Below the pieces are notes generated by a model. The model was given only the letters and a program-made list of their open reading frames with translations. It did not search any database and was not told where the DNA came from. Positions 41,046 to 63,021 of a stretch of DNA of 64,000 bases are shown here, in pieces. How positions within the stretch are numbered: the first letter of the stretch is position 1; each line of letters opens with the position of its first letter. Position numbers and translations under genes: made by a program. The DNA comes from Hericium rajendrae (Eukaryota; Basidiomycota; Agaricomycetes; Russulales; Hericiaceae), in assembly GCA_033439255.1 (NCBI GenBank), contig CM065878.1, positions 2,666,001 to 2,730,000 on the forward strand, written 5' to 3'.

Positions 41046-41167
41046 CGCTGACAGCAGGATTTGAACCTACGCGGGCAATGCCCAAGTGATGATGAATGCA
41101 AATCACGTGAAAATCACGTGCCGGGTGCAGTTCAAATCACTCGCCTTAACGACTCGGCCATATCAGC
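41046..41167 (-). tRNA. tRNA-Ser(UGA) with a ~40-nt intron
   Basis: On the minus strand the acceptor stem GCTGATA (41167-41161) pairs with TGTCAGC (41053-41047), leaving a G discriminator. The D arm reads GGCCGAGTCGTTAAGGC, the anticodon stem AGTGA pairs with TCACT, and the T arm is GTAGG-TTCAAAT-CCTGC. A long variable arm (GGGC-att-GCCC) marks tRNA-Ser. The anticodon TGA (41134-41132) reads UCA. A 40-nt intron (41130-41091) sits one base 3' of the anticodon, the usual place, and contains a repeated cacgtga. Spliced length is 82 nt and all stems pair, so the gene looks functional. CCA is not encoded, as expected. Confidence 0.93.
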
Positions 41168-41169
41168 TT
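41133..41169. repeat. Proposed attachment repeat in the tRNA-Ser gene (37 bp, copy 1)
   Basis: Identical base for base to 49,248-49,284. It covers the tRNA 5' half (nt 1-35, ending inside the anticodon) plus two bases before it. The flanks differ on the anticodon side and resume as diverged element sequence on the other. Confidence 0.85.
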
Positions 41170-41339
41170 ATTTAAATTATACGTACTAAAATATCACAAT
41201 AAGCGATCATCTTGAGACTTGACCTTATCAGATTTCGCTCTGCCCCGACTCAGATGCCACAGCAGGCATGTGCTGAAACTTGACCTTTCCACTATTCTGC
41301 CTGCCTGAGGGCAACCTCCCCAACACAATGGATAGGGAT

Positions 41340-41712
41340 GAGGCCTTTCAGTTTGGTGCAGTTGAATGAGAAAGAAAGGGACATATTTTGGGCTCATTCG
41401 AGCATGATCCGGAGAGAGGTGAGTCTGAGGGAATCGTCAATGAACAAGGCCCAGAGTGCGGGGTCAGATAGTGCTGAGTTCATGCAAATGATGGCAGACA
41501 TGAGTGACGTATAGCCAGGTCCGAGACATTGTCTCTCTTTGCACATTGTGTTGTTGCTGAACAGTCATGCGAAGGATGTTGCAAATCGTCTCCACCGGAA
41601 GTCTCAGGATAGGCATATGGACATTGAAGGCATGCTTGTTTGAAAGGATCTGGGCTTGTAGCTGTGCAGTGGAGCAATCGAGGTCTTTCCTCAACTCATT
41701 ATAGTCGAGCAT
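41340..41712 (-). pseudogene. F-box protein remnant in unit 1
   Basis: MLDYNELRKDLDCSTAQLQA, then PILRLPVETICNILRM and TWLYVTHVCHHLHE resemble the coiled leader and F-box of mushroom F-box proteins. The frame then shifts before ALSDPALWALFIDDSLRLTS and meets TGA after LRIMLE (near 41,400). The same break and stop occur in unit 2, so decay came before the duplication. Confidence 0.65.
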
Positions 41713-42350
41713 AGCTGATATGAAAGAGATTCAATGAATGGGAACATAGGAGCTATGGGGTAAACTCACCGTTCACTTGTGGGGATGGTGTAGAATAAAT
41801 CCGTTTATGCAGATGTATGCGCGGTCACTGACGGGGTGTCCAGACTTGTCAGTCGTTGACCGGGGGAAGACCGACTATATGCTGCACCTGAATCACCCAA
41901 TTGGCCTATCAGGTGAGGAACAGGATGAAACACAAGGTAAAGGGAAGGAAAGCTCACCTCCGTTGTAGAGGAGAACGAGCGAAGGAGAATGAAGAGAGTC
42001 GTGGTGTATAAATGGAGAAGCAGGCAGACGTGACCATGATGGACATGACATCATGAGCCGAGAGAGTGGGCAGAGATGGTCCTAAAGGAGACATAGGAAC
42101 GCGGAAAGGGGACGAGGAGGGATTCAGATGTCCGCGCGTTCTCTCACATGTTTGTGCCAACAGGGACGAGTATATGCAGGGATCGCAAGCGCGGGCTCAG
42201 GAATCGGAGTTACGTCCAATGGACTGCCAGTTAGAATCTCGGCAGCAGGATAAACATTTTGTCTGTTGCGTACATGGTATTCTACAAACTCGTCGTACAA
42301 TGGCAATGGTATTTCTACTACAAAGGAGAGGAGTTTGTGGGTGTTCGTTC

Positions 42351-43529
42351 TCAGAGGGCATCCTCATGGGTGAACTGAGCGTGAGAGGGTCTGGTCACTA
42401 CGATCAGAGGAAGGACATGGGCACGTACCGACGAGGCGCCGCCGGTGAAGAAAAGCTCCTCAGGCGATGGGGAAGATCCTGTCAAGGGAGACAGGGAGTC
42501 GATGAAAAAAAGGGTCTGCGGGATCGAGAAGGCGTTGCCGGCCTCTCCAGCAGGGCAGTGCTCCGACGATTCAGAGATAGATGAGGGTGAGGGAGGTCGC
42601 GAGGGCACCAGTTGATTGGAGCCGGTGGTCATTGTCGCCTGATCACCGCCAGTGACATTGGCCTGTGAAAATGCAGTGGATTGTGTGACGGAGCAGTGAA
42701 AGACTTACCGATGCAAAGAGCACTTCATTCCGGGGAGGGGGATACTGGAGAGGGTAAGGACAGTGCGGTGAATAGGGGAGGGGCCAGACGAACGTAGTGG
42801 CGTGTGAACAAGTGAGCATGGGGGCTGTGACCCATGACTGTGCGCATGCTCATTCGGAGCGCCTGGGGGGAGAAATGTCAATGGCGCGGCATTCCTCTGA
42901 GCATTGCAGGCATACCGCGTAGTGCTCGGAGTGCTATCACGAGAGGAACGTCAATCAGATGGGCATCGCCAGAGGACTAGAGGCATACCATAAGAAAGGG
43001 TGGTCCACGACGCAACAAGTAGTTCCCGGGGTAGGCAAAAGGATAGCCTGCTTGGGAATTTGTTAGATGGGAAAGTTGAAGGGTGGCTTGGTCTTGGTGA
43101 TGACCATTGGCGATAACATTGCCGAGGACGGTGTCTGCATCCGTGTCGCTGTCCGGGGAATGGGCACAAGTGGAGAGAGCAGAGTCATCATCGTCGCCCT
43201 CTTCGGACTTGGGCATGTCCAGGTCCGTATCCACGATGGGGAGGAGGGAGCCTGGATTCTGAGGCAGGGTGAGGCGCATATAGGCGCATATATGCATGCA
43301 GACTCACATTGCAGAGGGCCATGAGAGATTGGGCATCGAGACGAGGAGAAGAAGGTGGGTTCTGAGAGGGTGTGAGGCACGTACAAGCACGTATATGCAG
43401 ACTCACAATGCCAAATTCCATAAGCAATTCTGCATATAGTTGCTGAGGGGAGGGGGCCTCGTCAGCTGTGTGAGAGGATGGAGGGAGGTCCATGTTGTCT
43501 GTGCTGGGCTCGGCAGAAGTGGGAGTCAC
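42351..43529 (-). CDS. Element gene b: small acidic protein, unknown function
   Basis: Multi-exon frame beginning xTPTSAEPSTDNMDLPPSSH (43,529). It has exons NPPSSPRLDAQSLMALCNV and DTDLDMPKSEEGDDDDSALS (followed by ADTVLGNVIANGHH), a middle segment TTFVWPLPYSPHCPYPLQYP, and the end PSPEELFFTGGASS plus FTHEDAL. It is a paralogue of gene a next door. The expected ATG is GTG here (43,529-43,527) in both units, so translation, if any, would start at the next ATG (43,493). The protein is acidic and low in hydrophobics; no domain recognised. Exons around 42,640-42,960 are uncertain. A conserved open segment downstream (42,306-42,170, with LYDEFVEYHVRNRQNVYPAA) may be another exon. Confidence 0.5.
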
Positions 43530-44174
43530 GGTGAGGATGAACCAGAGAGAGTGGGGGAAGGGGGTTTATATAGGATGCTGCAATGCAGGGGCGACGCGTA
43601 GCATCACGTGAGTGACAAAGTCATTATCAATGTTTGCTACGTTCGCGAAGCCCGCGGCATCATGGTCTATTCACTAGTCTCACAGTGCAGCTACCTCTGC
43701 ACGCAAGGCATCCGCTCTGGCGAAGCACCCACCCGCCCAGCTCTTGCATACCCACAAATCTCATCGTTGAGGGCGTATCGGGCAGGACAGGACCAGAGGC
43801 TACGGTGCAGTGTGGGGAAAAGGTGAGGTGCAAGGATGTCAAGGGCTTCGGGGAGAGGTTCATGTGTCCTGGGGCAGAATCAATGGCAGTGTTGTACATG
43901 CAGTTTCTCTTGTGTTCTTTTTCCCGCCGCTTTCCCTCACGCTCGTGGGGGGGGGGGAGGCACGGGGGCGCGAGGGGGCACATGAAGAATACACGTGACC
44001 ACAGTCATAACCACACCGCAAAGCCCGCAGCACATCCTGCTGCTATATCCCCAGAGACCTACATCAGGACTTTGAATTGCAGCAGCAGGCGGAACGATCG
44101 AGTACATGGTCTTCTAGTGTTACAAGTGCAATGGTATTTCTACTCCAAGGGGAGGATTGTCTCCGTCGTCGGTC
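43530..44174. other. Spacer between genes b and a of the element
   Basis: About 645 bases; contains a run of ten or so G's (43,948-43,957). Some decayed similarity to the region downstream of gene b (caatggtatttctact at about 44,130). The unit 2 copy breaks off within this spacer, at the position equivalent to about 43,712. Confidence 0.4.
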
Positions 44175-45209
44175 TCAGAGGGCATCTTCATCTTCATGGG
44201 CAGACTGAGTGAGAGAGAATGTAGTGACTAAGATCGGAAAAGGGCATGAGGACATACCGATGAGGCAGCGCCAGTGACGAAGTGCTCCTCAGGAGATGAA
44301 GGAGATCCACTCAAGGGAGATGCCGGGTCGAGGATAAAATCAGCCTGACAGATCGAGGACGTGTTGGCGTCTTCTTCGGTGGAGGTGTGCTGCAATGAAT
44401 CAGGGAGAGCCGAAGAAGAGGTAGGAATGAGCTTACAACGTCATTAGAGGGTCCCGGGCCGGTAGGAATGGCACCGTGGACCTCGAGCGGTACATTGGCC
44501 TATGCACATGCAGTTGATTGTGTGTAGCAAGGCGGCAAAAGACTTACCGATGCAAAGAGCGACTCATACCCAGCAGGGGGGCCCTGGAGAGGGTAAGGGT
44601 ATGATGGGGGATGGGATAAAGGGAGAACGAACGTAGTGGAGGTCGAACAGATCACGTTGGGTACCGTGGGCCATGAGGGTGTGTGCAAGGCGGCGGTTCT
44701 GGTGTGGGAGGAATGTCAGTGGGGTGCAATTCTTTTGAGCATATACTTTGAGCACGTACTACGTAAAGCTCGGGGTTCTGTCATGAGAGGAATGTCAATT
44801 TATCAGGAGTCGTTGGCGACGCATCTGGCAATTCACCTGACGGGAAACGGGAGCTCTGAATGAATAGCGTTGGTAGACATCGGTGCCAACATCTCCAAGG
44901 ACAGAGTCCAGGTCAGCATCACTGCTCGGTGCAGAGGCACGTGTAGAGAAACTGTGGACGTCAACGTCCTCATCAGAGTCCTCGTCGGACTCGAGGTCGG
45001 GCATGTCAGTGTCCATATCGGTGACGGAGCGTGGATTCTAAGGTGGGGTGAGGTGTAGTTCAGTGCATATATGCATGCAGACTCACGTTGCTGAGGGCCA
45101 TAAGGTAATGGGCATGTTCCAGGAGGGTAGCAAATTCATTGTCAGGGATGAGAGAGGATTGGCTGAGGTCCAAGTTGTCTGTTTCGGGTTCGGTGGAAGT
45201 GGAAGGCAT
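44175..45209 (-). CDS. Element gene a: small acidic protein, paralogue of gene b
   Basis: ATG at 45209 begins MPSTSTEPETDNLDLSQSSL, exon 1 ending LEHAHYLMALSN. Exon 2 is very acidic: DTDMPDLESDEDSDEDVDVH, then DADLDSVLGDVGTDVYQ. Later exons contain STTFVLPLSHPPSYPYPLQG, ESLFAS, a segment with EEDANTSSICQADFILDPAS, SPEEHFVTGAASS and the end SAHEDEDAL at 44,175. Gene b shares the opening TSxEPxTDNxDLxxSS, the xVLGxV block and the ending ASSxxHEDAL, so the two arose by duplication inside the element. Function unknown. The acidic stretch could mimic DNA or bind basic proteins, but this is only a guess. Confidence 0.55.
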
Positions 45210-45781
45210 GGTTGGGATAGAGAAAGGACATGGAGGATGGGGAGTTTATATAGGGCAGGATGGACTGACCCAATGTGGATGGATGGGTGTCACGCAGGAG
45301 ACGCATAACATCACGTGACTGAAGATGACAGGGAAGTGGAGCTGTATCTGAGAGATGGCGGTTTTGTGTTGAGAATCAAAGAAAACAGTGAACGAGGCAT
45401 GTCGTAGGCATGAGGAGAGGCAAACATGCACAAATCCTACAACTCGAGGACCAAACTTGAATTCCATTGCAGACAGTAGGTGCGGAGCAGTATGGATACA
45501 AACATGTACAAACCCCGGGACTCGGGGGCGAAAGGTACATTACAGCGTGTATTCAGGGGACAAGGGCAAGATGCAGACAGCGTGGATACGAGCCAACAAG
45601 CACCAAGCAAAAGAGGCAAAGGCATTGACAAGAGACAGGAATCCGGAGGCCAACACGCACGAGAAAGACGGCAAGTTTCGTTGAAGAGGACTGGGATACG
45701 GAAAGGCATGGACAAGAGACGGGAATCCGGAGGACGACACGCACGACAAAGACAGCGACAGTTTGGACAAAAAGAACTGGG
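45210..45781. other. Spacer with a direct repeat of ~50 bp
   Basis: Region between the recombinase stop and gene a start. Two near-identical ~50-bp stretches (from 45,620 and from 45,702, containing acaagagacRggaatccgga) form a tandem repeat of about 82-bp period. Confidence 0.6.
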
Positions 45782-48700
45782 TCAAGGGGCAGACGCCGTG
45801 GCAGACGCCGTGGTGGATTTTCCTGGAGACTGGGGAAGAAAAAGACGCTGAACATTAGTATATACCTTGCCGCCGCAGGCGGGCAGGCGGTGAACAGTGA
45901 TCAGGTGGTATGTGAGATCACGAAGACTGCCATGGGCGCGGGTGCCGCATGAGGGAACGGGGCACTGCAGAAGGGCGGGGTGGGATGTGAGGTGTTGTTT
46001 GAGATGGGATTTGAAAGAGGCAGCATCGTCCCATCTGAAGGGTTTATAGGAAATGAGCGGAGCCTACACAAGTGGATACGCACTGTTTCATCCTTTGCGA
46101 GAAGGAGATGGATTCGTCGAAAACACAATATGGGCAGAAGATGGGAGACATGGCGAGGGCAGGAAGGACCTCCCCATGGAACTCGGGAAGGAGACCATGG
46201 AAACCTTGATGGAGATCATACTCGACAGCGTTATCCATGGGCGGAAGAAAGGCGATACCGATGGGTTGGACGTCGATGTCCTGAGCACGGGAGGAAAAGG
46301 GCCCGAACAGTTCACCATAATGGTGTGCACAGTGGTCATCCCATTGGAAACCATGGTAGTCGTCGGTCCTGGGGGATGACGTGCAGAAAAAGAAAGCGTG
46401 TGATACAGAGGGACGCACCATTCATGGCAGAGGTAACAGTAATGGGATGTTATCATGGTTTGGACATTGAGGGCGTGCACTTCAGAGAAGTGGTGCTCCC
46501 AACTCTTGCAGTCAGTTTCTTCACAGGGTGAACCGCCATCGAGACGCCACTGACAGGCCGGTCCCTCCTGCGCTGGATCGCAGTTCAAGGTCCAGAGGTG
46601 TGCATTTTGGATATGTGAAACAAATGCATGACGAGAGGGCCAGAGGGTATCGGAGAGAGCGCAGTGGAGCCACTGGCAGGTCTGGGGCCGGTATGTCTCA
46701 GTTGTAAGGGCTTGGACCTCGGTCTGGCGCTGCTTTTCGAGACAGGCATGTATGTGGCGTCCAACGCCACCTGCGCGTTTCATGAGAGCGTCGCTGCTCG
46801 GGATGAGTACATGGGAGCGTGGGAGAGTGGTGGGACTCACATGCAACGCTTTCCACACACAGGACACTTGTTGTCAGCGGTAGGGCTTTCACCTGGATAG
46901 CATAGTGGGGAAGCGCCGCTGGGAAGGTCGAGATAGGCATGGATGGAGTCAGTCAGATTGTCAGGGGTGGAGGTCTGGGCGTGGTAAAGGAGGTGACAGA
47001 GAGCATCGAGGGGATCGGACGTGGCCAGAGGGGTCTGCGCCGTGGTGCTGGTCGATGTCGCTGTCGTCTGTGCATGACGGGCATGGTCGGCAAAGTGTTT
47101 CGTCCTATTTTCGGTGATCTTTTTGCGAGATTTGTAAAGCAAATGATTGTGATAGCGAGCCCGGAGGGTTTTGATGTTCAATGTGATCTCGCGAAGAGCA
47201 GCAGCCTGGGCAGCAGGGGAGAGGGTATCGGGGCCTTGTTGCGGTTGAGACTTGATGAGAACGCGCTTTTCCTGAAGCTAGTGTGTCGGGGTGGGTCAGG
47301 AGTGTCTTTGGCACAGGGAAGAGGCATGTCTCACTGCACTTATTTCTTCCTGAAGCTGGAGAAAGTGGGGTTGGCCCCTCAGTGCTGCGCGGTCTGCAGC
47401 GTTGAGGGTGAAAGGCGCATTGGGGTCGAGAAGGGCAGAGGAGCGAACAAGGCTCTGTCTGATGGTGTGAGCAGAGGAGTAGGCATTGTATGGATTACGC
47501 ACACGCAATCTGGCAGTGGTGTCTGACGACTCTGCATTGGATGCCTTGAGGCCCTGCAAATCGACCGTGGATATAGAAGACTTGTAGTGTTTCTGCACAA
47601 GGGCGTATTGAGCGTGGGGAGAGCAAAGGAGGTGTGGAAAAAACGTACAAAAAACATATCAGATTGGGGGCCATGGGCCATAAGGATCCTGCGCTTGTCG
47701 TCGGAAATTGAGCGAGCAAAGCGCGCTGCCGCGCCGCGGCGGATATCATAGGGGAGGACAGGATCTGTGGTGAAAGTGGGATTGGCAGGGGGAGGTGTCA
47801 AGAGAGGCAAGACATACGCGGAAATCTGGCGGCATAGGACATGGCAGTGAGCCATGTGCGAAAGGAATCATAGCCCAAGGCATGCAACGGGGAGACGGCC
47901 CACTGTCTGTCAACGCGCTCCTCTGCGCGGAATATGGGGCGGTCCTGCCACTCTATCTTGATGGGGAGATCGTAAGGGCGGGTTGAATGGACCTGCGGAG
48001 AGAGGATTTCCTCGACACTGTCCACATGCTGAAAGATCGAGTCTTCCAAGGCAAGACACAGGAACGAGAACACAGGACAGGAAGCACGGTTTTCAGTGGG
48101 TTCAGCTTCGACTAGGAACGATTTGTTTCGAGATAGGTCGTCGCGGGATCCCTTCAGCAGGTCGACGGTGACAGCCATGGTGAGATGGGGATGGGCCTGA
48201 TCCTTGTCGTTGGGAAAGAGGTAAAAGGCACAATTTCTCCATAGGAGAGCCTGGTTGGTGCCCCGATGGCATGCGCTCTCAACGATGGCGCCAATGCGCT
48301 CCGAGGACAGGGAGGCCACAGACAAGATGGAGTGCATCTGCATACGCATGCGCGAGGTGTGGAATTTGACGCGATCGTGCCAAATGGTGTGAAACAGGAT
48401 ATCGACATCAACCTCATCGCATATGCGTTTCTCACGTTCCGCTGTGGTGAGAGGTGTGCAGACGAGCAGATTCTTCGAGTTGATAAAGTTCTCCACACCT
48501 TTTCTGACAGAACGATCAACGCGGATCTGGGCATGACGTGGCCACAAGGCGAGGAATGTGCTCATGTATGACTCCAGAGTGTGTTTCTTTATGTACTCCC
48601 CAACACGTCCGCGAAGGCTCAGGACAAGCCAGCGTGCAAAGTCTAGGATGATATCTAAGGCACATATGAGCACGGGCTCAGAATGAAATGAGGACACTGA

Positions 48701-48978
48701 CGGAGGGAAGGGACGTGGGAGCCAGGTTTGATGTCACTGGAGAGGTCAGCGACCTCTTGTGTGATAGTGCCCTCGGCAATCGCATCGTGGAGAAATTCAG
48801 CCCAGTACTTTCGAATACGATCGTGGTGTTTGGTGGTGGGTACACCGATACGGGCTGCATGAATAACGCCCTTGTAGTTGGTCGTGCAGAGTGTACGAAT
48901 TCCTGGGTTTTCGGCCAGCCGTCATTGCATGCGTTCTTCGCGAGAACAATTGGCAGAGCGGGCGAGCGGGCGGTCCAT
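45782..48978 (-). CDS. Tyrosine-recombinase-like (DUF3435) protein with C-terminal C2H2 fingers
   Basis: Reading down: NYKGVIHAARIGVPTTKHHD, RKYWAEFLHDAIAEGTITQE, an intron, then IILDFARWLVLSLRGRVGEY (N-terminal helical part). The catalytic part has LSSERIGAIVES (first Arg), VTVDLLKGSRDD (Lys), YDIRRGAAARFARSISDDKR (second Arg) and RILMAHGPQSDMFFKHYKS (His and Tyr): the R-K-R-H-Y set of tyrosine recombinases in the DUF3435 arrangement. Then come a basic linker and Cys/His clusters: NKCPVCGKRC, CQWLHCALSDTLWPSRHAFV...HIQNAHL, YCYLCHEW, FCPYC and QCPVPSCGTRAHGSLRDLTY...HLITVH. Stop 45782-45784. The likely ATG (48,978) is followed by an in-frame TGA at 48,924-48,922 where Trp would fit (MQ-stop-RLAENPGIR). 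Either an unseen start or intron exists, or the gene is freshly inactivated. Such proteins drive excision and insertion of Starship-type and Crypton-type elements. Confidence 0.75.
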
Positions 48979-49192
48979 GATGGTGGGAGGAAAGAACGAG
49001 GACAGTGTGGGGGTGATGGCGAGAGGAGAGAAGAAATACGGTGGGGAGAGCCATTGGGGGAAGACACACTTGGGGTGCAGTTGGGGGCAGGCGGCTGGGG
49101 AGAGCCCCAGCGACGAGGCGAGAGGCGGGATGACATCATGCGGAAATGAACAGGGCGGGAAAGTATGCGCCGGCAGGTCGTGGGAAAGTACA

Positions 49193-49246
49193 CGCCTTTT
49201 TTGGCACGGCCCGGGCGTTCCGCCCCCGGCCGCACCAAAAAAGGCG
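49193..49246. repeat. 54-bp near-perfect palindrome next to the attachment repeat
   Basis: Arms cgccttttttggcacggc (49193-49210) and gccgcaccaaaaaaggcg (49229-49246) pair with two mismatches. The 18-base centre is itself partly palindromic (ccgggcg...cgccccc). It ends one base before the 37-bp repeat at 49,248 and lies about 200 bp upstream of the recombinase start region. This is a candidate recombinase binding site or element end. Confidence 0.8.
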
Positions 49247-49247
49247 C

Positions 49248-49284
49248 CAAATCACTCGCCTTAACGACTCGGCCATATCAGCTT
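49248..49284. repeat. Proposed attachment repeat (37 bp, copy 2): orphan tRNA-Ser 5' half
   Basis: Exact copy of 41,133-41,169: the tRNA-Ser 5' half with acceptor strand, D arm and anticodon stem 5' strand, but no 3' half, intron or T arm beside it. It cannot make a tRNA and is best read as a junction between element units. Confidence 0.85.
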
Positions 49285-49449
49285 GCTTGAATTTTGCATA
49301 TAAAAATCTACAATAAGCTCTCATCTTGAGACTTGACCATATCAGATTTCACAAATCACTCTGCTCTGACTTGGATGCTGCAGTGGGCCATGAGAGGAAA
49401 GATCCCTGGATAGGGTGAGAATGGGCTGAGTGAGGATAGAGATGAGGCC

Positions 49450-49816
49450 TTTCAGTTTGGTGCAGTTGAATGAGAAAGAAAGGGACATATTTTGGGCTCA
49501 TTCGAGCATGATCCGGAGAGAGGTGAGTCTGAGGGAATCGTCAATGAACAAGGCCCAGAGTGCGGGGTCAGATAGTGCTGAGTTCATGCAAATGATGGCA
49601 GACATGAGTGACATATAGCCAGGTCCGAGACATTGTCTCTCTTTGCACATTGTGTTGTTGCTGAACAGTCATGCGAAGGATGTTGCAAATCGTCTCCACC
49701 GAAAGTCTCAGGATAGGCATATGGACATTGAAGGCATGCTTGTTTGAAAGGATCTGGGCTTGTAGCTGTGCAGTGGAGCAATCGAGGTCTTTCCTCAACT
49801 CATTATAGTCGAGCAT
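49450..49816 (-). pseudogene. F-box protein remnant in unit 2
   Basis: Near-identical copy of 41,340-41,712 (one visible change in the F-box: RLPVET to RLSVET). It has the same frameshift after HHLHE and the same TGA after LRIMLE. Confidence 0.65.
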
Positions 49817-50972
49817 AGCTGATATGAAAGAGATTCAATGAATGGGAACATAGGAGCTATGGGGTAAACTCACCGTTCACTTGTGGGGATGGTGTAGAAT
49901 AAATCCGTTTATGCAGATGTATGCGTGGTCACTGACGGGGTGTCCAGACTTGTCAGTTGTTGACTGGGGGAAGACCGACTATATGCTGCACCTGAATTAC
50001 CCGATTGGCCTATCAGGTGAGGAACAGGATGAAACACAAGGTAAAGGGAAGGAAAGCTCACCTCTGTCGTAGAAGGGGGGAAAAGAATGAGTAAGGGAGA
50101 ACAAGGAGAGTTGTGGTGTATAAATGGAGAACCAGGCAGACATGGGTGGGACCATCATGGACATGACATCATGAGCCAAGAGAGTGGGCAGAGATAGTCC
50201 TAAAGGAGACATAGGAACACAGAAAGGGAACGAAGGGGGATTCAGATGCCCTAGCAGAAAATGTGTTCTCTCACGTGTTTGTGTCAACAGGGATGAGTAT
50301 ATGCAGATGCAGGGGGATCACAAGTGTGGGCTCGGGAATCAGGGTTACATCCATTGGACCACCAGTTAGAATGGCAGCAGGAGGGTAAACATTTGGTGTA
50401 TTGTGTACATGGTATTCTACAAACTCGTGGTACAATGGCAATGGTATTTCTACTACAAAGAAGAGGAATTTGTAGGTGTTCATTCTCAGAGGGCATCCTC
50501 ATGGGTGAACTGAGCATGAGAGGGTCTGGTCACTACGATTAGAGGAAGGACATGGGCACGTACTGATGAGGCACCACCGGTGAAAAAATGCTCCTCAGGC
50601 AATGGGGAAGATCCTGTCAAGGGAGACGGGGAGTCGACGAAAAAAAGGGCCTGCGGGATCGAGAAGGCATTGCTGGCCTCTCCAGCAGGGCAGTGCTCCG
50701 ACAATTCAGAGATAGATGAGGGTGAGGGAGGTCGCAAGGGCACCAGTTGACTGGAGCCAGTGCATCTGAGAAATTAAAATTTTATATAGCCTAGTGTTCA
50801 TTTATATGTCCTATCATAGTGCTATGAGGTCTATCACCATCTATGTAGCTATCTTTCTCAACTATATAAGGCTATGAGGCCTATCATGGCTTATATAGCA
50901 GTAGTTAGACACTATATAGTGCTATATATTTCTGAGGGGCAGCTATAGCTGCTATATAAACTCACTGGCTTG

Positions 50973-51038
50973 CTATGGTCCCTATGGTCCCTATGGTCCC
51001 TATGGTCCCTATGGTCCCTATGGTCCCTATGGTCCCTA
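50973..51038. repeat. 9-bp tandem repeat (ctatggtcc)x7
   Basis: Seven perfect head-to-tail copies of ctatggtcc (50,973-51,035) plus the start of an eighth. Confidence 0.95.
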
Positions 51039-51169
51039 CAGTAAGTGAGGTATGAATACTAATATTGCTATCTCAAGTCAACCAGGTACGAAAGATACAG
51101 AGTCAAAATCAATTATATTTAATAAGCTACTACTACAATTAAGTACACTACAAACTTAAACAGTGCATG

Positions 51170-51650
51170 CTGATGGAGCACGATAAGGGCGCGCACGCAT
51201 ACGAGGCGCGGCGGGCGTGCGGGGCACAGGAGTTGCGCACGCGGCACAGCAAGCCTATGCGCGAGGCGCTGGGCCCGTGCGCGAGGCGTTGGCCTGTGCG
51301 CGAGGTGCTGGGTCCATGCGCGAGGTGCGGGAAGTGCCGTGGCCGTGTGCGCCAGCGTCGGGCTGCAGCGGGCCCGTATGCGAGACGCGGGGTGTGCACG
51401 AAAGATGCGGCAGGCGGTGGGCCCATGTTTGAGGTACTAGGGACCATCCACGAGGCACGGCGGGCGAGCGCGAGGCGCCCTATGCCAGCGAGGCGTGGGG
51501 CCCGTGCGTAGAGCGCTGGGCTGCCGCGGGCCCGCACGCGAGGTGCGGTGATCGTGGGGCACCGGGCTGCCGCTGGGTCATGCACGAGGCGCGGCGGGGC
51601 ACGGCAGTGGGCGTGCTCGAGTCGCCGGGGTGTGGTAGGCCCGTGCGCGA
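51170..51650. repeat. CpG-rich minisatellite, transposon 1 left block
   Basis: Degenerate copies of a ~20-25 bp unit of the form cgcgaggYgctgggcccgtg. Long open frames arise on both strands because the array lacks A/T-rich stop codons; they are not taken as genes. Confidence 0.8.
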
Positions 51651-52714
51651 AGCGCCACAGGCATGGGCAATGCGTCGGGGTCCGGTGATGCGCCCTTTAG
51701 CACGCCTTGCAACGGCATTGCCCACTCCCCGCCTCCTTGCCCGTCCCGCTTCACTTCACCTCAGCTGCACCAAGCCCGCCCACCGCGACGTTGCTCCCCG
51801 CACAGGACAAGCGCCCCCACGGGTTCGGGACCGACCGGGTCGGACTAAAGCCGGTGTCCCATGGTCCGATGCACCGAACGGGCCGGAGATCAACCGGCTG
51901 GACGAGTCAGCGGCACAGGAACAGAAGCGCGCCCAGCGAACCAGCCGGCTCAATCAACGCGCCCTCGAATGCCCACACGCCCCCGGATCACGAGCGGCGC
52001 CCGCGACAGTGCGCTACTGACGTCATCCCAGCCATTCCAGCTCGACGCGCCCGCCGTTCCCGACGCACGCCCCGGGCGACGTTGTAAGGCGGCACCTTTG
52101 ATTCGTTCGTACCACGCGCACGCCCTCTGCCCTGCACGGGCCGAGCCGCAACGACTCCACTCGCCAAGGGACCCGGAGCAGGCAGGATCAGGAAGGAATT
52201 GGAGATTGGGTCGGTCAGCGGGAGGTTGTCGTAGGAAGTCGCGCCGGGCCGCCTGAGGCGGCCTTGCCCATTTGTACCGTAGCTACTGACTTAGAGAAGC
52301 AGAACGGAATCTGCCTTTTTCCCCTCAGAGCTCAGATCTCACAAAGCCCGCCGTTTGACGTTCTCACCCCAGTCTCTAAGCACGTCTCAGACGTAGCTCT
52401 TCTCACTTTCTCGTGTCGCTCATCATATTCGCCGTACTCGTCGCCGCGCCGTTATCTACAAGCCGTATCACCTAAGACCCGTGAGTCTTGTCGTACCGTC
52501 ATCGTCCCTAGCAGAGCCGTGTCGGAAGTCACCCGCACGCAGCAAGCTCGCCCTCCGCGGCCTTGCTCCCCTACCCGTAGTACGATCACCCGTCAGCTAC
52601 ACGTCTCGGCGCTCCCCTCTTGAGATACTTGGTCCCCTCGCACCCCCCGGTACTCTGTTGGTTTTGGTTTTGGCTGCCGCCTCCATTCCCAGGGTCCACA
52701 CATCACCGGTGGCC
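51651..52714. other. GC-rich block without recognised gene (transposon 1)
   Basis: Not repetitive within the window. Open frames such as 51,580-52,020 (+, with GPEINRLDESAAQEQKRAQR) exist in two registers, but I recognise no family and codon context is uninformative in such GC-rich DNA. Confidence 0.4.
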
Positions 52715-53400
52715 ATGCACAAGGCGCGTCGGACGTTGCGTGGGGCGTGGGGCTCCCGTTAGCTCATGCGTGAGGTACCGCAGGGCGTGGGGCTCCCGCT
52801 GGCTCGTGTGCGAGATACTGCAGAGTGCGGCGGCCTTGTACGGAGTGTGGCGGGCGTCCGCGAGGTGCGGCGGACGTCTGCGCAGGCATCGCGGGCCCTG
52901 GAGATGTCGGGAGGCACGTGAGCGAGGCGCAGGGTGCGTGGGCGAGGCGCGGGGTGCGTGGGCGAGGCGCGGGGGGGGTGGGCGAGGCGCAGCGAGCGTG
53001 CTGCAGGGTGCTGGACTGTCACAGGCCCATACACGAGGTACGGCGGGCATCCACCGGGCGCTGGCTCGTACGCGAGGTGCGGCGGCATGGCGGGCGTGCG
53101 CGAGGCACCGGGCTCATGCACGACGCAGAGGCCTGCGCACGAGGCACTGGGGCCCGCGTGCGAGCACGCCTCGCACAGCCACGCATGACGTGCACGCGTG
53201 CATGTGCTGGCTGGCACGCCGCACGCGGCCGTGGCCATCCGCTGGCCGTGCGTGTGCTGGCATGCGCAGCACGGCGGCCCATGCGCGAGACAGGGAGGCA
53301 GCGACCGGCGTGCCTGGCGAGGCGGCGGGCTGTCGTGTGCGTTGTGCGGCAGTGTGTGTGGCAGCGGAATCGGGGGTGGGTCGATGGGGGAGAGGCGGCA
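52715..53400. repeat. CpG-rich minisatellite, transposon 1 right block
   Basis: Repeats of cgcgaggtgcggcgggcgt type, including ggcgaggcgcggggtgcgtg three times in a row at about 52,921-52,990. Same family as 51,170-51,650. Confidence 0.8.
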
Positions 53401-53439
53401 GCAGGAGATGAGTGGATGGGAGAGGCCAGCGAGAGAGTA

Positions 53440-53990
53440 TCGCTCGCATGAGCAATACTCCCTGCGTTAGCACGAAGAAACAATAAGGAAGTTTTTTTTT
53501 ACTCACCTGAGGGGCCCTCGTCATCCTATTACCCTCCTTCGGATGTTCAATTTGACGGGAGAGGACAGAGGTGAGAAGGAGAGGGAGGGGAGTGGTGGTG
53601 GAAGCTCGAGTTGAACATTTGAACTTCGATGCGCATTTCGGTGGTTCAGCCACCAAATGTGCGCGAGTTCAAATGTTTCGAACGTAGTAAATCAAATAAA
53701 ATAGGAAAAAATCAAAGAAAAACACAGTATATACATTTCATTAATAGAAAATGACTGAATAAGCTCAGTGTCTAGCTACTGTGCTACAGGCTACCGGGCA
53801 GCGACACGAACTTAATGATGTCTGCCGCCTTAGCCTCTGATGCAGCGTCCAGCAGCGCTCGGGCCGAGTCGCGTCACCCACATTTGGCACTCCGCTCGCC
53901 ACATCTATATAAGGCATGCGCGACGTGTGTTCTCTCTCTCTTCCCTACCACTACCATCTCTCATCTTTCGTCGCTCTCTCTCTTATGCCT
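53440..53990 (+). promoter_or_regulatory. Dispersed TATA module, copy 1
   Basis: Contains a T9 run next to actcacctg (a 5' splice site if read on the minus strand), the segment tagtaaatcaaataaaat (53,686-53,703), cttagcctctga and the block ctatataaggcatgcgcgac with TATA at 53,906-53,912, then a C/T-rich start-like region. It matches 59,410-59,960 in order and spacing and, inverted, the TATA part at 62,420-62,645. Conservation of a TATA box and pyrimidine tract suggests an RNA polymerase II promoter of the transposons; no protein frame follows. Confidence 0.6.
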
Positions 53991-54596
53991 CAACTTTTTT
54001 ATGTTCAGTAAGTTGTTATGTTGTTTTCTTATCTACTAATGCTAATGTTCTTTGTAGACTTTGCAATTTTGCTTTTATTTCCTTAGGTAAACCTTATGTT
54101 TTTCTATTTTCTTATCTTATAATACTAATTTGTTGATTTGTCTTGTAGATCATTTTCGCTTTTTCTTATCTTTGTAGTTGTCACAGATCGCTCCATTTCT
54201 CTCCGCCTTCTTCTCTGCCATCAAGGCATCGCGTCGGTCATGTGCTCCAGCAGCCCCATCACATGTTCACTTCCTCACATGACCTGGGGCTATCCTTCAC
54301 CCATGCCCTTGTTCCCCTTTGGGACATCCTATTGTTCTCCCTCCCATTGTTCTCCTTTTGGCCACCATTGTTCTCACTCTATTGTTCGACCCATTATGGT
54401 GTCCATTGTTCTTTTCCCATTGTCATCCCAGTACTTATAATCGCCTATTTCCCTAGATTGTCCATTTTATCTGTACCGTACTGTACCTCCAATACAGGTC
54501 ACTGCGCTGCTAGTCGCTCTCTGCTCTCTCGCTCCCATCATCGCTGGTGACTTGGGTGGTTCTCTGCTGTCTACGACCGAGTCTTGACAGTAGTAA

Positions 54597-54677
54597 GTCT
54601 TATCTTTTATATCTTATCTTTTATATCTTATCTTGTATATCTTATCTATCTTATCTTATCTATTTATATCTTATCTT
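54597..54677. repeat. Tandem repeat of atcttatcttttat type
   Basis: Three 14-bp copies (one with a base change) followed by shorter atctt units. Confidence 0.85.
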
Positions 54678-55300
54678 TCAGTCATCATAGCTTGTAGTAC
54701 ATCATAGGTTTGTAATAATGTTTGTAGTAATGTACAGAATATATTTAAAATATAATGCTTTTAAATTTTCGATGTTTTGAATGCCTTAAATATATTATGA
54801 TTTTTTCTTAGATTGATGAATTTATAGCATTCTTTGAGCAACATTGTTGGTTAAGGTAACATAGAGTAGATAGCAGTCTTACTAGCTAGATATAATATGA
54901 TATCAGAGATATATCACATAGCAAATATAGCTTTGATAATCATCATATGCTATGGCAGTTATGATAGCTATCTTCTTATAATAGAATAGCTATAATGGCT
55001 ATGATAGCTACTACCTTATCCTATGATAGCTATGATAGCTTATGATAGTCCTATGTAGGTTGTCTTGCTACTATAGAGTGCTATGTAGAAAAGGAGACTG
55101 CTATGGCCCTATCAGAGCTATATAGGCTACATAGTGCTATATACCACTGTTAAATTTCTCAGATGTGGTCATTGTGGCCCCATCAGGAAAAACCGCAAAT
55201 CCATCAAACACGCTTACCGATCATCAGAAGTTTGATGGGTGCTACTGATGTCAGATTAGCGCTACTGATCTAGACTTAGTGATGTAATACAGTCAATGGT

Positions 55301-57575
55301 GTGACTTTGGCCGCAACCTACGGGCCAGACAAAAGTGACCTAAGGCCGTAAGTTACGGGCTGGTCAAACCCAGCTGGAATGAGGGTTTTTGGTCCGTAAG
55401 CTACGGGCCAGCTGGATCTGGGAATAGACCATAAGTTACGGGTCAGCTTATATAGATGTGTACCATAGGTTACGGTGGAGCTGGCAGGGGGTATTTCTTG
55501 GGTGCCGGACTAATGGAATTAAATCAGAACCGGACTACTTTTTCTAGCTTCAGACTGCTTTTTTAGGGCTTGGACTAGTGGTTGAAAATTGAACTGGATT
55601 ACATAAGATAACATAGGACTACGGACTATAGAAGATTATGGAATAGGACTATCAGACAGGACTTCGGACTTGTATTGAATAAGACATCAGACTATTCCAC
55701 AGGACTTTGGACTACTTTATAGGACTTCGGACTACTCTATAGGACTTTGAACTACTCCATAGGACTTCGGACTACTCCATAGAACTTCGGACTACTTAAT
55801 AAAACTTCAGACTACTTAATAGGACTTCGGACTACTTAATAAAACTTCGGACTCTGAACTAGACTAAGGACTCTGGACTCTGGACTTCAGATTGAGAACT
55901 TCGGATTAAGGATTATAAAATAGGACTATAGACAACAGACTTTGGACTAGGACTTAAAACTCCGGAACATGACTCCGGACTCTAGACTATTACGGATCAA
56001 AGACTTCGGACTCCAGACTCCGGACTTCGGACCTCGGACCTCGGACTATAGCCTTCGAACTTCAGACTGAACCATAAAATAGGCATCAGGACTAATCTAA
56101 TGATAAAATCAAATTAAGGACTACAAAATAAAACAAAGGACTATAAAATAGAACTAAGGACTACAAAGACAGATTTAGAATCAGAAAATTAGCCTAAGGA
56201 CTATAAGATCTATGATCAGACTATGGACTATAAGATAGAACTAAGAACTATAAATATATATTCTAAAATTATTCAACAGACTAATTTGTATATAAAAAAG
56301 GCTACTTGAGTTTTGAATTAAATTATTATAGGACAAAGAAAAAGAGCAGGACAAAACAATAGTAGCTAGTAACAATCAAACATTCAAGTTGACGCGTCTT
56401 TAGTTGTACAGCCACAAGACCCATATCTAGATTCTCGGTATTTGAGTCATAACAAATCAAATCAAATACTATAAAATTAGCAAAAATAACAGCATATACT
56501 TTCAACTCATATAATATTATAAAATGCAACAGATTTATATTTAAGATACTATAGTATATGAGATGGCAGATATAAGTTAGTAAAGTCTAAAAATTAGCCT
56601 CTGATGTAGTGCTCGGCAATCACCAACATCTAATATTGTAACTCCGCTGAGTATAGTCACTGTGTTGCAGCTATATCACATCAAATGGATTACTGTGCCA
56701 CTACTTTAAACAAGCTCTCAAGAATGCTAGCTTATAATCCTTAGTTTCATTCTATTATTTAGACTTTAGTCTGAAGTCTCAAGGCTATAGTCCGAGGTCC
56801 GAGGTCCGAGGTCCGGAGTCTGGAGTCCGAAGTCTTTGATCTGTAGTAGTCTAGAGTCCGGAGTCATGTTCCGGAGTTTTAAGTCCTAGTCCAAAGTCTG
56901 TTGTCTATAGTCCTATTTTATAATCCTTAATCCGAAGTTCTCAATCTGAAGTCCAGAGTTCAGAGTCCTTAGTCTAGTTCAGAGTCCGAAGTTTTATTAA
57001 GTAGTCCGAAGTCCTATTAAGTAGTCTGAAGTTTTATTAAGTAGTCCGAAGTTCTATGGAGTAGTCTGAAGTTTTATTAAGTAGTCCGAAGTTCTATGGA
57101 GTAGTCCGAAGTCCTATGGAGTAGTTCAAAGTCCTATAGAGTAGTCCGAAGTCCTATAGAGTAGTCCAAAGTCCTGTGGAATAGTCCGATGTCTTATTCA
57201 ATACAAGTCCGAAGTCCTGTCTGATAGTCCTATTCCATAATCTTCTATAGTCCGTAGTCCTGTGTTATCTTATGTAATCCAGTTCAATTTTCAACCACTA
57301 GTCCGAGCCCTAAAAAAGCAGTCCGAAGCTAGAAAAAGTAGTCCGGTTCTGATTTAATTCCATTAGTCCGGCACCCAAGAAATACCCCCTGCCAGCTCCA
57401 CCGTAACCTATGGTACACATCTATATAAGCTGACCCGTAACTTATGGTCTATTCCCAGATCCAGCTGGCCCGTAGCTTACGGACCAAAAACCCTCATTCC
57501 AGCTGGGTTTGACCAGCCCGTAACTTACGGCCTTAGGCCACTTTTGTCTGGCCCGTAGGTTACGGCCAAAGTCAC
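55301..57575. repeat. Large inverted repeat with ~0.8 kb arms
   Basis: Left arm 55,301-56,069 and right arm 56,768-57,575 are reverse complements with few differences (gtgactttggcc... against ...ggccaaagtcac), around a ~700-bp A/T-rich loop. Outer parts hold repeats of gtaRSttacggRcYagctgg type. Inner parts hold a 20-bp tandem repeat (aggacttcggactactYYat, about ten copies per arm at 55,660-55,860 and 56,990-57,190). A transcript would fold into a very long hairpin. Confidence 0.9.
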
Positions 57576-58179
57576 TGTATTGTGTGTGTAATAGAAGAAT
57601 CATGACCACTGTAATTTAGCCGTAGCTTCTGTAGCACGTAATTATGCAAGGCACATTTTGATCAAGGAATCTGTAGACGTCATCTACCTGCTGTAGCTAT
57701 GATGCGCCTGCTGTAGCTGCAGTAGACAACATATTAACATGCATTATATCATTGACTTTAACTATTCTATGATTCTTATGTACATATACCATTAGTTAGC
57801 AACATAAATATGATATATATGATCAACTCTTATAAGTTTACTTAAGACTGTATAGAGTTGAGTGTTGCCGCATTGTATGAGCAGCAGGACGAAGAATGTT
57901 GCCCAAATATAGGCATGATTTGTCGTCTTAAGCTGGCTGTACTGGAGCGCCACGACTCAACAAGTCGAAACATTGAAGTCCTGTCTCAAGGTATGTTCAC
58001 AGTGTGTATTGATACTAATGCATATGGAATTATAGGTTCTACTACTGCCCTTGCCTCTGGGCTTTGTATCTGGGCCTTGGCTCCAAAAAAAAGGTTCTAA
58101 TAGGTACGTCAAATAATCTTCTGAATCATAGCACAAATGTGTCTCTCCAGACCTCAAACCTTTGTCGATTTGCACGATC

Positions 58180-58770
58180 TTGGCGTCGTTCGAATCGTGC
58201 TGATCGTAGCTTTCGAACGAGCCCACATGCGAGGCGTTTGGATAAGTATTAGGTGAGTTACCTGCCTTATTCTGATAGGTACTTACTGATAGCAGGATCT
58301 TGGCATAGCGCAACGAGCAGGGCATGGATCGGCTCGTGTATAGGCTTGTTCGAACGCTATGATTCATAGCTTTCGAACAAGCCTACATACGAGTCGATCC
58401 AACCAGCCGTTGCTCCGCAGCAAGACATTCTCTCCTCCTGGTAAGGCAAAATTCGCCTTTTAGCGAATTTGTCATATCTCGGTCAATACAGTACGTATCG
58501 ACGACGTTTTAACAGTTCTGGAAAGGGCTAATTTATACCTTTCCAATAAGCCTACATACACGTCGATAGGACTAGGTAGCGCCACGAAACAGCAAGATCT
58601 CCTGGATGATGTGGCAAAACGTGCTTTTGCCATATCTTGGGATATATTGTACGTATCACAGCTCTCTTAGGCTCGACTGAAAGCTCTGATTCGTAACTTT
58701 CGAACAAGCCCTCATGCGTCCATATTGGTGGACATTTCATCGCGCAAGGGACAAACTTGTCCTATCATCC
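58180..58770. repeat. Diverged tandem repeat, period ~165 bp
   Basis: Four blocks each contain a variant of tcRtagctttcgaacaagcc followed by tacatRcgagtcg (near 58,205, 58,365, 58,540 and 58,700). The bases between are also partly alike (gtcatatctcggtcaata and gccatatcttgggatata). Confidence 0.65.
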
Positions 58771-59029
58771 CTCCTCCTAGGCGAGTTTTTTTTTCACTTT
58801 CTCAAATCTCCATCATTTTCTATGATCTTAGGCTTATTTTGCTCACACAATGCAGGGCTTTCATTTTATTATATTAATCAGGTAAGTACTGGACGTGTGG
58901 TACTGCAATATTGATACCTCTGATTTCTTAGGTGTCACCTGGGACGTTCCCACGCCCTCGGCAGAGCGGCACAGAGCAGGACGAAGAATCATGCGCAAAT
59001 TTGGGCATGATTCTTCATCCTCCCAGGGT

Positions 59030-59440
59030 GGCAGGGCACGGTGCGGGTGAGGTGCAGTGCAGTGCAGGTGGGGAGGGGGCACACTAGGGGGGGGCATGCG
59101 GCGCAGTGCATGAGCGAGGCACAGTGTGGTGTGGATGTGGCTACAGGTACGGCGCGGTAGATGGGCATGCAGGTGAGGCACGGCATGGTGGACAGGCATG
59201 CAGGTGAGGTGTGGTACAGCATGGTGGACATGCATGCAGGCGAGGCACGGCACAGCGGGCAGGTGCACGCATGCGTCAGATGCATGGGGTACGGGTGCGG
59301 GAGTGGGTGCAAGGTGGTGCACACAGTGGATGTGCACACATGCATGGTGCAGTGACGTGCGCATGGGTGAGGTGTGGCGCAGTGGACAGGTGTGCAGGCA
59401 TGGCATAGTGCAGCGGACGTGTGATACTCTCAGTGTTAGC
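59030..59440. repeat. Minisatellite, transposon 2, CpG-poor form
   Basis: Copies of ggcatgcaggtgaggcacgg type. The unit looks like that of transposon 1 with CG changed to TG or CA at most places. Confidence 0.75.
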
Positions 59441-59960
59441 ATGAATAAATGAAAAGATTTTTTTTTACTCACCTGCCAGGTCCTCATCATGCTATAACCA
59501 TCTGCCGGCATTTGATTCCACATGAAAGGGGGAGGGAGGGAGGAGGAGAGGAGAGAAGGAGGGGAGTTGAGGGTAGCAGCTGCAAGATGAATGTTATTGA
59601 TGAACTTTGATGTGCGTCAAGTCATTCACCACCAAACATGTGCAAGTTGGAATGTTTCTAATGTAGTAAATCAAATAAAATCAGGATAAATCTGAAAAAA
59701 CACCAATAGCTATATTTCATTGATTCAATTTATTTGAATCACAGAACTATATAGCTACTGTACTATAAGCTACTGGACAGCAACACGAACTTAGTGAAGT
59801 CTGTTGCCTTAGTCTCTGACACAGCACCCGGCAGCATCTGGGCCAAGTCACGGCAGCTGCATTTTGGGCTCCGCTCGCCACGTCTATATAAGGCATGCAC
59901 GACGTGCAACCTCTCTTTCTTTCCAACCCCCATCATCTCTTCTGTCATTGACTCGAGCTT
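59410..59960 (+). promoter_or_regulatory. Dispersed TATA module, copy 2
   Basis: Same order of landmarks as 53,440-53,990: T8-9 run with actcacctg, tagtaaatcaaataaaat (59,665-59,682), cttagtctctga, ctccgctcgccacgtc and tatataaggcatgcacgac (TATA at 59,885). Differences from copy 1 are mostly CG to CA or TG. Confidence 0.6.
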
Positions 59961-62419
59961 TGTGCATGGTGTGTCTTCCTTTTTCTTATTAGTAATCTTT
60001 ATGCTTATGTCTGTTCTTACCTTACTATGGGTATGTACATTTTCGTTTCTTTTTATTTTTTATTTTTTGGTAAGTCTTTGCTTATAGCCTTTGATACCTC
60101 ACTAACTAGCTTTTACTAGTACTTGTTAGATATAATATTGCTTTTTTTGTGATGTTTGTAATGTTTGTTCTTTTTTACAGTCTATGCTTTTGAATCCTCT
60201 TATAGTGTAGTCTCATATAGTACCATGTATTTGTATTTGCTAGTAAATAAATTTGATTGTTGTTTGTTTGAACCCTTATGAACTGCATAAGAATTTTTTG
60301 TTGACTTAGATGTTATATTGAGTTAGTCAAATTTGAAGACCTGCAAATATAACAGGCTGCATATGTGCAATAAATCTATTGTAGCATGAATGGACTACTG
60401 TAGTTGTGGTAGCACATTATAGCATCTGTAGAAGATTGCACATTGTGGAAACTTGACTTGTCTACAGTAGCAAATCTGTACTACAGTGAACTACAGTAGA
60501 CAATATCTATCTACAGTAGCTACAGAAAATAAGAAGAGTCCTACAGACACTACCGCAACTACTCTGGCTACTATAGCTACTGTAGCCAGCGGTAGTTTGC
60601 GATAGTACATACGGTTTTTCCTGATGCCGGTCACCACCAGTGACATTGGCCTGTGGAAATGCAGTGAATTGTGTGACAGAGCAGTGAAAGACTTACAGAT
60701 GCAAAGAGCACTTCATTCCTGGGAGGGAGATACTGGAGAGGGTAAGAACAGTGCGGTGAATAGGGGAGGGGCAAGACAAACATAGTGGCGTGTGAACAAG
60801 TGAGCATGAGGGCTGTGACCCATGAGTGTGCACATGCTCATTTGGAGCTCCTGGGGGGAGAAATGTCAATGGCATGGCATTCCTCTGAGCATTGGAGGCA
60901 TACCGCATAGCACACAGAGTGCTATCATGAGAGGAACATCAATCAGATGGGCATTGCCAGAGGACTGGAGGCATATCATAAGAAAGGGTGGTCCACGACA
61001 CAATGAGTAGTTCTCTGGGTAGGCAAGAGGATAGCCTGCTTGGGAATTTCTTAGATGGGAAACTTGAAGGGTGGCTTGGTCTTGGTGATGACCATTGGCG
61101 ATAATGTTGCCGAGGACGATGTCTGCGTCCGTGTCGCTGTCTGGGGAATGGGCACACGTGGAGAGAGCAGAGTCATCATTGTCACCCTCTTTGGGCTTGG
61201 GCATATCCAGGTCCGTATCAGTGACGGGGAGGAGGGAGCCTAGATTCTAAGGCAGGGTGAGGTGCATATAGGCACATATATGCATGCAGACTCACATTGC
61301 AGAGGGCCATGAGAGATTGGGCATCGAGACAGGGAGAAGAAGGTGGGTTCTGAGAGGATGTGAGGCACATATGTGCACGTATATGCAGACTCACAATGCC
61401 AAATTCCATGAGCAATTCTGCATATAGTTGCTGAGGGGAGGCATCCTCGTCAGCTGTGTGAGAGGATGGAGGGAGGTCCATGTTGTCTGTGCTGGGCTCA
61501 GCAGAAGTGGGAGTCACGGTGAGGATGAACCAGAGAGAGTGGGGGAAGGGGGTTTATATAGGATGCTGCAATGTGGGGGCGACACGTAGCATCACGTGAG
61601 TGACAAAGTCATTATTAATGTTTGCTATGTTCACGAAGCCCACAGCATCATGGTCTATTCACTAGTCTCACAGTGCAGCTACCTCTGTGTGCAAGGCATC
61701 CGCTCCATCTGAAAAATTTGCCAGTGATACATAGCTCTATCTAGTCTACATAGATCTTCTAGCTTCATAGTATCGCCCTTTATTGTATAGCCCACATAGC
61801 CAAAGAGAGATGCTATATAGTGCTATGAAGCTCAAGGGTGATGCTATGGAGTGCTATCATAGCTATCATAGCTACCTATGAAGCTATCATATGGTACCTA
61901 GCTATCATACCTATAAGAGCTATGTCAGTTGCATATGCTATGATTGATAGATAGATTTAGTACATCTATGTAAGATACAAAATCTATCAGCAATATGCAA
62001 ATTTATTTAAAATCAAGACTAGACAAGCTATGCAACAACCTTGAAATCCTGACTCATTATTAATTATAAAAACAAAAGTTTAGATAAATTCAAAAGCATT
62101 ATATTTATTATCTAATATAATATAACATATGATAAATATATACTACAACATCAACATTGATTACAATCTAAACATTAAAAACCTTACAAATACCTACAAA
62201 GATAACAAATCATGAAGCAAACAACTACTTACAAATAAACAAAAAGCGAAATACAATCTATTAGAAAACATGAATAGTTAGCTATAAAAATAAGTTTAGA
62301 AGACTATAACAGACGAAGACTTACCAAAATAAGATAAAAGCAAAATTGCAGCCCATAAGACTAAAACAAAGTAAGCAAGGCATAAGCATAGACTACAAAA
62401 GAAATATGAAGAGACTTAC

Positions 62420-62645
62420 CGAAAGTCTTAGCCAATAGAGAAGCTTGCGCGGAATGAGGAGGGATGGTGGGGGTTGAAGAGAGAGAGAGAACGCGCGTCA
62501 TGCGAGGGTTATATAGGTGAGCGCGGGTTTGCCCGGCGGAGCCCCAAATGTGGCTGCCGGGATGCGGCCCGGGCACCGTGTCAGACGCCAAGTGCCAGAT
62601 CTCATTAACTTCGTTCTGCATTCCAGTAGCTTATAGTATGCTAGT
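62420..62645 (-). promoter_or_regulatory. Dispersed TATA module, copy 3 (inverted)
   Basis: Read on the minus strand: ataagctactgg, gacacggtgcccgggccgc, ccacatttggggctccgc, ctatataaccctcgcatgacg (TATA at about 62,510-62,517), then a (ct)n tract. It lines up with copies 1 and 2. Confidence 0.6.
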
Positions 62646-62989: not shown

Positions 62990-63021
62990 GAGAGTCTCGC
63001 TCGTTATCGAGCGAGACTCTC
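62990..63021. repeat. Perfect 14-bp hairpin
   Basis: gagagtctcgctcg - ttat - cgagcgagactctc, followed by a gttttt run on the plus strand. Confidence 0.9.

Follow-up and report, generated by a model that had tools for sequence, protein, structure and literature searches.

A family of captain-type (DUF3435) recombinase elements probably directed at tRNA genes in the basidiomycete Hericium rajendrae

The giant Starships, which have been linked with the transfer of genes among fungi, are driven by captain-type recombinases, whose choice of target is still little understood. In a stretch of 64,000 nucleotides of Hericium rajendrae (GenBank assembly GCA_033439255.1, contig CM065878.1, positions 2,666,001 to 2,730,000; hereafter the window), we noticed two units in tandem beside an intact tRNA-Ser(UGA) gene. 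Each of them contains a DUF3435 recombinase gene at one end and adjoins a copy of the 5' half of that tRNA. Together with a junction of the same kind at a tRNA-Leu half elsewhere in the genome, this arrangement makes it likely that a small family of captain-type tyrosine recombinase elements uses the anticodon loop of tRNA genes as its insertion site, a reading drawn from sequence comparison. Relatives of the element were examined across contigs and loci of this one genome assembly, in which the array sits on contig C1. The recombinase was identified with Pfam (PF11917, DUF3435), and tRNA genes were identified with Rfam and with ARAGORN with introns allowed.

The tRNA-Ser(UGA) gene occupies positions 41046 to 41167 on the minus strand and contains a 40-nt intron (Rfam tRNA, 45.5 bits; ARAGORN anticodon, tga); a separate ARAGORN run reported no gene at this place. 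Its 5' half lies in a block of 37 bp (41133 to 41169, minus strand), which recurs letter for letter as an orphan copy at 49248 to 49284 on the same strand. The exact repeat in the window ends after the second anticodon base. Both the intact gene and the exact copy had been described in the original prediction, which also expected an orphan half past 64 kb. As predicted, a third exact copy was found at 72935 to 72971, at the end of the second unit and 8.9 kb beyond the window end (contig position 2738936 equals window position 72936). To count such blocks, the whole genome (46.77 Mb) was searched with the last 36 bases of the block, allowing up to 3 mismatches. In this and the other whole-genome searches the best candidates alone were scored, so that counts are lower bounds. 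At least four places were obtained. Three were exact and all belonged to the array, and the one with 3 mismatches was the 5' half of a paralogous tRNA-Ser(UGA) gene on contig C11. The backward control of the pattern gave no match in the genome. Each of the two orphan copies lies next to a unit's captain end.

Unit 1 extends from 41133 to 49247 (8,115 bp), in line with the predicted unit of 8.1 kb. Its body (41334 to 49247, minus strand) shares four main blocks of homology with unit 2, at 92 to 94% identity. Unit 2 runs from 49248 to 72934 (23,687 bp) and ends outside the window, beside its own recombinase gene. The part of its body that lies in the window (49390 to 64000, minus strand) continues to 72934, where the third tRNA half and the native flank follow. 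The original prediction was correct in placing a second unit after the first one, but 61705, its end for the whole feature, marks no more than a nested-insertion border within unit 2. Three such insertions, about 15.5 kb in total, account for the excess length of unit 2, which measures approximately 8.1 kb without them.

Past the tRNA half, the repeat continues imperfectly into the host flank, a feature that the original prediction did not include. Unit 1 contains 164 bp of this flank (copy F1, 41170 to 41333), comprising the region upstream of the tRNA up to ATGGAT, the start of an LSM1-like gene, whereas the copy in unit 2 is shorter (F2, 49285 to 49389; 105 bp). The flank after the third half is native, and the LSM1-like gene itself begins 164 bp on (73136; LSM domain, E = 1.5e-16). 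Half and flank of unit 1 (41133 to 41333) match positions 72935 to 73141 at 84.6%. The tRNA-Ser(UGA) gene looks as if a second copy of its 5' half, together with 105 to 164 bp of host flank, had restored it.

Read along the tRNA strand, the order in each unit is orphan half, terminus, recombinase gene, body, flank copy, and tRNA half. The captain-end terminus, GGCGCCTTTTTT together with a GC-rich inverted repeat, is located at 49191 to 49247 (minus strand) in unit 1; unit 2 ends with the same sequence, which is also present on contig C2. The captain is the first gene and reads inward; its ATG is separated from the terminus by about 270 bp in unit 1 and lies at the same place in unit 2. Among the best candidates in the 46.8-Mb genome, the DUF3435 model recognized these two recombinases alone. 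Each unit has one of them, located at its right-hand end before an orphan half.

For unit 1, the captain gene was modelled from 47297 to 48978 on the minus strand and may extend further to the left. The reading frame has its ATG at 48978, an in-frame TGA at 48922 to 48924, and three introns (48701 to 48655, 47817 to 47765, and 47648 to 47593). When spliced and begun after the TGA, the protein matched PF11917 with an E value of 3.8e-36, as the predicted recombinase at the far end of the unit should, and no other Pfam family was reported. Its candidate active-site residues, as read from motifs, are the R in SERIGA, YDIRR, the H in MAHG, and the Y in KHYK. In unit 2, the DUF3435 match covers one exon (71506 to 72063; E = 3.7e-20). 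In this copy, intron 1 no longer has its 5' splice site, and the motif reads YDICH. The exon 1 TGA is common to both units, and the captain of unit 1 may start after it. CpG-type changes in exon 2 at sites where unit 1 has the CpG comprise 21 amino-acid-changing and 12 silent ones, out of a possible 74 and 33, respectively, and one stop, a pattern such as would be expected without constraint. Both captain copies are probably inert now. A search of the PDB found nothing.

Comparison of the unit 1 body with the genome revealed two relics of captain exon 1 outside the array, one on contig C2 and one on contig C11. On C2, the terminus directly follows a tRNA half of 33 nt, and the captain relic lies 1.5 kb further in, in the same direction. 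The half is 94% identical to tRNA-Leu(AAG) 5' halves of this genome (E = 3.2e-9; 20 loci searched), whereas it aligns to the serine half over 24 nt only (83%; E = 0.039). It stops just before the anticodon, that is, in the anticodon loop. The terminus is joined to a tRNA half at three junctions, twice to Ser(UGA) in one array and once to Leu(AAG) on C2. Targeting of tRNA genes, as originally predicted, is upheld by the array and by the C2 junction. Serine specificity is not, because the C2 terminus adjoins a tRNA-Leu(AAG) half, and the element looks to be tRNA directed in general. In the 50 kb read around the C2 relic, no tRNA-Leu gene, no second Leu half, and no 3' half were found. At least three matches to the Leu 3' half were found in the genome, all of them within complete tRNA-Leu genes elsewhere. 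Of these three complete tRNA-Leu(AAG)-like genes, ARAGORN assigned two to tRNA-Ile, with the intron placed differently, and one to tRNA-Leu(AAG); because both halves are identical among them, we call all three tRNA-Leu(AAG). A fourth Leu 5' half (C1:1567470; 3 mismatches) lacks a complete 3' half and was set aside as a pseudogene or fragment.

The relic on C11 (142 bp, 80%) is in the same direction as the second tRNA-Ser(UGA) gene and is found 2.4 kb upstream of it. A search with the tRNA-Ser(UGA) 3' half, allowing up to 3 mismatches, found at least two genes, the one in the array and the one on C11. As just those two were found, both tRNA-Ser(UGA) genes adjoin the element family. The C11 relic is also flanked by direct repeats of 1.4 to 1.7 kb (368654 to 370348 and 371060 to 372450; 77 to 86%) upstream of the tRNA-Ser(UGA) gene; the process behind these repeats may be that of the array or another one.

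According to the mechanism that we favor, the recombinase would join the captain-end terminus to the tRNA 5' half in the anticodon loop, the junction observed three times and with two tRNA species, and insertion would split the tRNA gene. At the far end of both units, the 5' half and its own 5' flank are present again, and because of this, tRNA-Ser(UGA) is intact. The restored gene could then be a target again, so that a second element would insert beside it and push the older one outward. The elements would arrive separately, perhaps by way of a circular intermediate. With a redundant tRNA such as tRNA-Leu, a broken gene may simply have been left, whereas at the low-copy tRNA-Ser(UGA) the half and flank are present again.

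The copy of half and flank could either be carried by the element or be made at each insertion. Duplication at each insertion is favored because the flank-body junctions differ between the units. The flank of unit 1 reaches the ATGGAT of the LSM1-like start, whereas that of unit 2 stops approximately 60 to 65 bp earlier, and about 44 bp absent from unit 1 precede the shared body. The stretch from 49375 to 49433 had no second match in the genome. In the serious rival explanation, a single tRNA half and flank, once captured, travel with the element as an attachment (att) site in the bacterial style, and exchange takes place between this copy and the tRNA gene. This would directly yield the order of tRNA, unit, half, unit, and half, and it suits the undecayed state of the half and the terminus, with their CpGs kept, compared to flanks F1 and F2. 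A single carried site fits less well with units whose flank-body junctions are not the same, with flanks F1 and F2 that differ from each other more than the bodies do, and with the lack of a second tRNA-Leu half and of an intact tRNA-Leu gene around the C2 relic. We regard it as possible, though less likely than not. Of the bacterial-style layout envisaged originally, the tandem elements at a tRNA gene are supported, and an element with a single standard att copy fits less well.

The CpG content was used to compare the decay of blocks in the array. All CpGs are kept in the tRNA half (3/3), and most of them are kept in the terminus (last 97 bp; 11/12 in unit 2 and 11/14 in unit 1). The corresponding values are 0/5 for flank F2, 1/13 for flank F1, and 206/407 for all blocks of unit 2. 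The low decay of half and terminus may be due to an unmethylated promoter or to constraint.

The decay of the bodies also bears on the order of events. CpG-type transitions between the units are strongly imbalanced, with the CpG kept in unit 1 in 207 cases and in unit 2 in 46 (P = 1.4e-25), and all three nested insertions are found in unit 2. The simplest reading is that unit 2 would be the older unit and that unit 1, beside the tRNA, would be the later arrival. Transversions between F1 and F2 (6/82; P = 1.7e-5) and between F1 and F3, the flank after the third half (5/161; P = 0.004), exceed those between the bodies (48/7,884), whereas the difference for F2 and F3 (2/89; P = 0.11) is not significant. 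These results speak against one unit being a plain in-place copy of the other. Such a copy could have arisen after a single insertion through unequal crossing-over or replication slippage, with no part for the recombinase in the tandem form. The repeated blocks do offer the homology required, and the bodies are as similar as stated above, with only 7 differences in their first 400 bp. Nevertheless, the one-sided CpG losses and nested insertions, the differing flank-body junctions, and the excess of flank transversions make in-place duplication unlikely in our view.

Several observations weigh against insertion of the family into tRNA genes or against the separate arrival of its members. Neither mobility, nor a circle, nor an empty site was seen in the one genome assembly. 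The imbalance of CpG losses could stem from unequal methylation of the units instead of separate arrival, and the near identity of their first 400 bp suggests later exchange between them. No terminal inverted repeat was evident between the unit ends, as 21, 34, and 60 of 200 shuffles reached the score of the captain end aligned to three left-end stretches. On C11, local alignment for an orphan half gave a result no better than shuffles. Taken by itself, the terminus pattern shows no excess over its backward control, with 23 matches at up to 3 mismatches compared to 21. Body-like relics on C12, C1:1704 kb, and C4 had no tRNA within the 10 kb read, and the captain match at C1:1704 kb was weak (E = 0.04) and was dropped. 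On C5, a body-like stretch resembling window positions 41862 to 42153 lies 60 bp from a tRNA-Arg(CCG) gene (2065802 to 2065920) in the opposite orientation. We did not count this locus because of that orientation and because the 10 kb read around a similar stretch on C4 contained no tRNA. Likewise, C6:340852 to 340957 (97% over 106 bp; 1.7 kb from a tRNA-Thr gene) was not counted because neither captain nor terminus is found there. These body-like stretches on C12, C1:1704 kb, C4, C5, and C6, none with a confirmed captain, could be genes that the host and the element have in common.

The association with tRNA genes could also be accidental, a DUF3435 element having landed near tRNAs whose half copies are ordinary segmental duplications. 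Apart from the C11 locus without a recognizable orphan half, this would fit the restriction of the evidence to one genome and the scans of viral and prokaryotic collections, which gave no relative. The context of the terminus matches points the other way. Of the 23, 3 are true termini, each placed after a tRNA half; another 2 correspond to the opposite arm of the inverted repeat, and the remaining 18 are unrelated, none of them standing after a tRNA half as judged by eye. The same terminus adjoins 5' halves of two different tRNAs, both of which end in the anticodon loop. We therefore consider an accidental association very improbable.

Integrative elements of bacteria and archaea at tRNA genes have a tyrosine recombinase beside the tRNA-fragment junction, keep the tRNA intact, and can be stacked in tandem. 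Bacterial ones mostly repeat the 3' part of the tRNA. In contrast, the fungal array repeats the 5' half and 5' flank, and its recombinase belongs to a different family. As in tRNA-gene integrative elements, the junction lies inside the tRNA gene at a fixed point, at the independent loci Ser(UGA) and Leu(AAG).

Starships, whose captains have the PF11917 domain (PMC12134995), are described as DUF3435 captain elements of Pezizomycotina with sizes of 15 to 700 kb (PMC12134995, PMC12153272), cargo genes being among their traits. Their direct repeats measure 2 to 12 bp, and terminal inverted repeats were reported in 18 of 20 (PMC12153272). Some of them target a small RNA gene; in Aspergillus fumigatus, the Osiris Starships integrate into 5S rDNA and break it up (PMC12153272). 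The array shares with Starships a PF11917 recombinase gene that comes first at one end and reads inward, and it may resemble them in the direct repeats at its ends. It differs in its size (8.1 kb for unit 1), in repeats of 37 bp plus imperfect flank, in the lack of an evident terminal inverted repeat, in having a tRNA as a target, and in a target gene that is intact. Occurrence of an element at several sites would be a further Starship trait; here, the array on C1 and the captain relics on C2 and C11 are diverged relatives and not the same copy. In the basidiomycete Tremella fuciformis, Starships of 42 to 606 kb have been reported (PMC13066641). They resemble the units in having a captain and direct repeats but are larger, and the available part of that report does not mention a tRNA target. 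The array may work like a small Starship, although it differs from that group in its size, in the lack of recognized cargo genes, and in the lack of an evident terminal inverted repeat.

Two other types of elements were considered. Cryptons also employ a tyrosine recombinase (PMC12134995), but the array was not assigned to them, as Pfam reported DUF3435 only. Dada transposons target tRNA genes (PMC8869645), and the likeness concerns the targets. Among the matches listed in the open-licence literature, with subscription papers and preprints outside the scope, there was no tRNA-directed captain element.

More broadly, the array might represent a class of fungal DUF3435 elements at tRNA anticodon loops that stack in tandem and survive in a low-copy tRNA gene through a fresh duplicate of 5' half and flank at each insertion, with the broken gene lost in the redundant tRNA-Leu. 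We put this forward tentatively, with confidence somewhat short of even. If true, these elements would cut a universal gene at a fixed point, and traces of host-gene rebuilding would be preserved at the locus. Searches for captain elements in the genomes of other fungi could then turn to tRNA genes, and bacterial and fungal recombinase elements would have adopted tRNA docking sites independently of each other.

The remaining content of the units is less informative. Ten queries from non-captain open reading frames of units 1 and 2 had no Pfam match above the cutoff; DUF87, DUF3439, ProRS-C_1, and RNF111_N fell below it and were treated as chance. Two related stretches in unit 1 (42296 to 42491 and 44121 to 44320; 75%) resemble a duplicated gene, relatives of which with stops occur on C12 and at C1:1704 kb.

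The nested insertions in unit 2, none of which is present in unit 1, are located at 50763 to 60630, at 61706 to 64531 (the window stops at 64000), and, outside the window, from 65326 to about 68174. All three start with CATCTGA(G/A)AAATT. The inverse of this sequence closes the second insertion, whose left end is matched, in inverted form, by the right end of the third. From these ends, the insertions are predicted to be one family of DNA transposon with inverted ends. The first of them contains an inverted repeat of 565 nt (55289 to 55853 and 57023 to 57587; 97% complementary, 1,169 nt apart), which includes runs of 20-nt tandem repeats.

On the opposite side of the tRNA-Ser(UGA) gene, an NDUFA5-like gene was found at 39936 to 40400 (E = 9.9e-22). 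Elsewhere in the window, positions 26700 to 27827 comprise an exon of a polysaccharide lyase of family 8 (PF02278; E = 3.2e-72).

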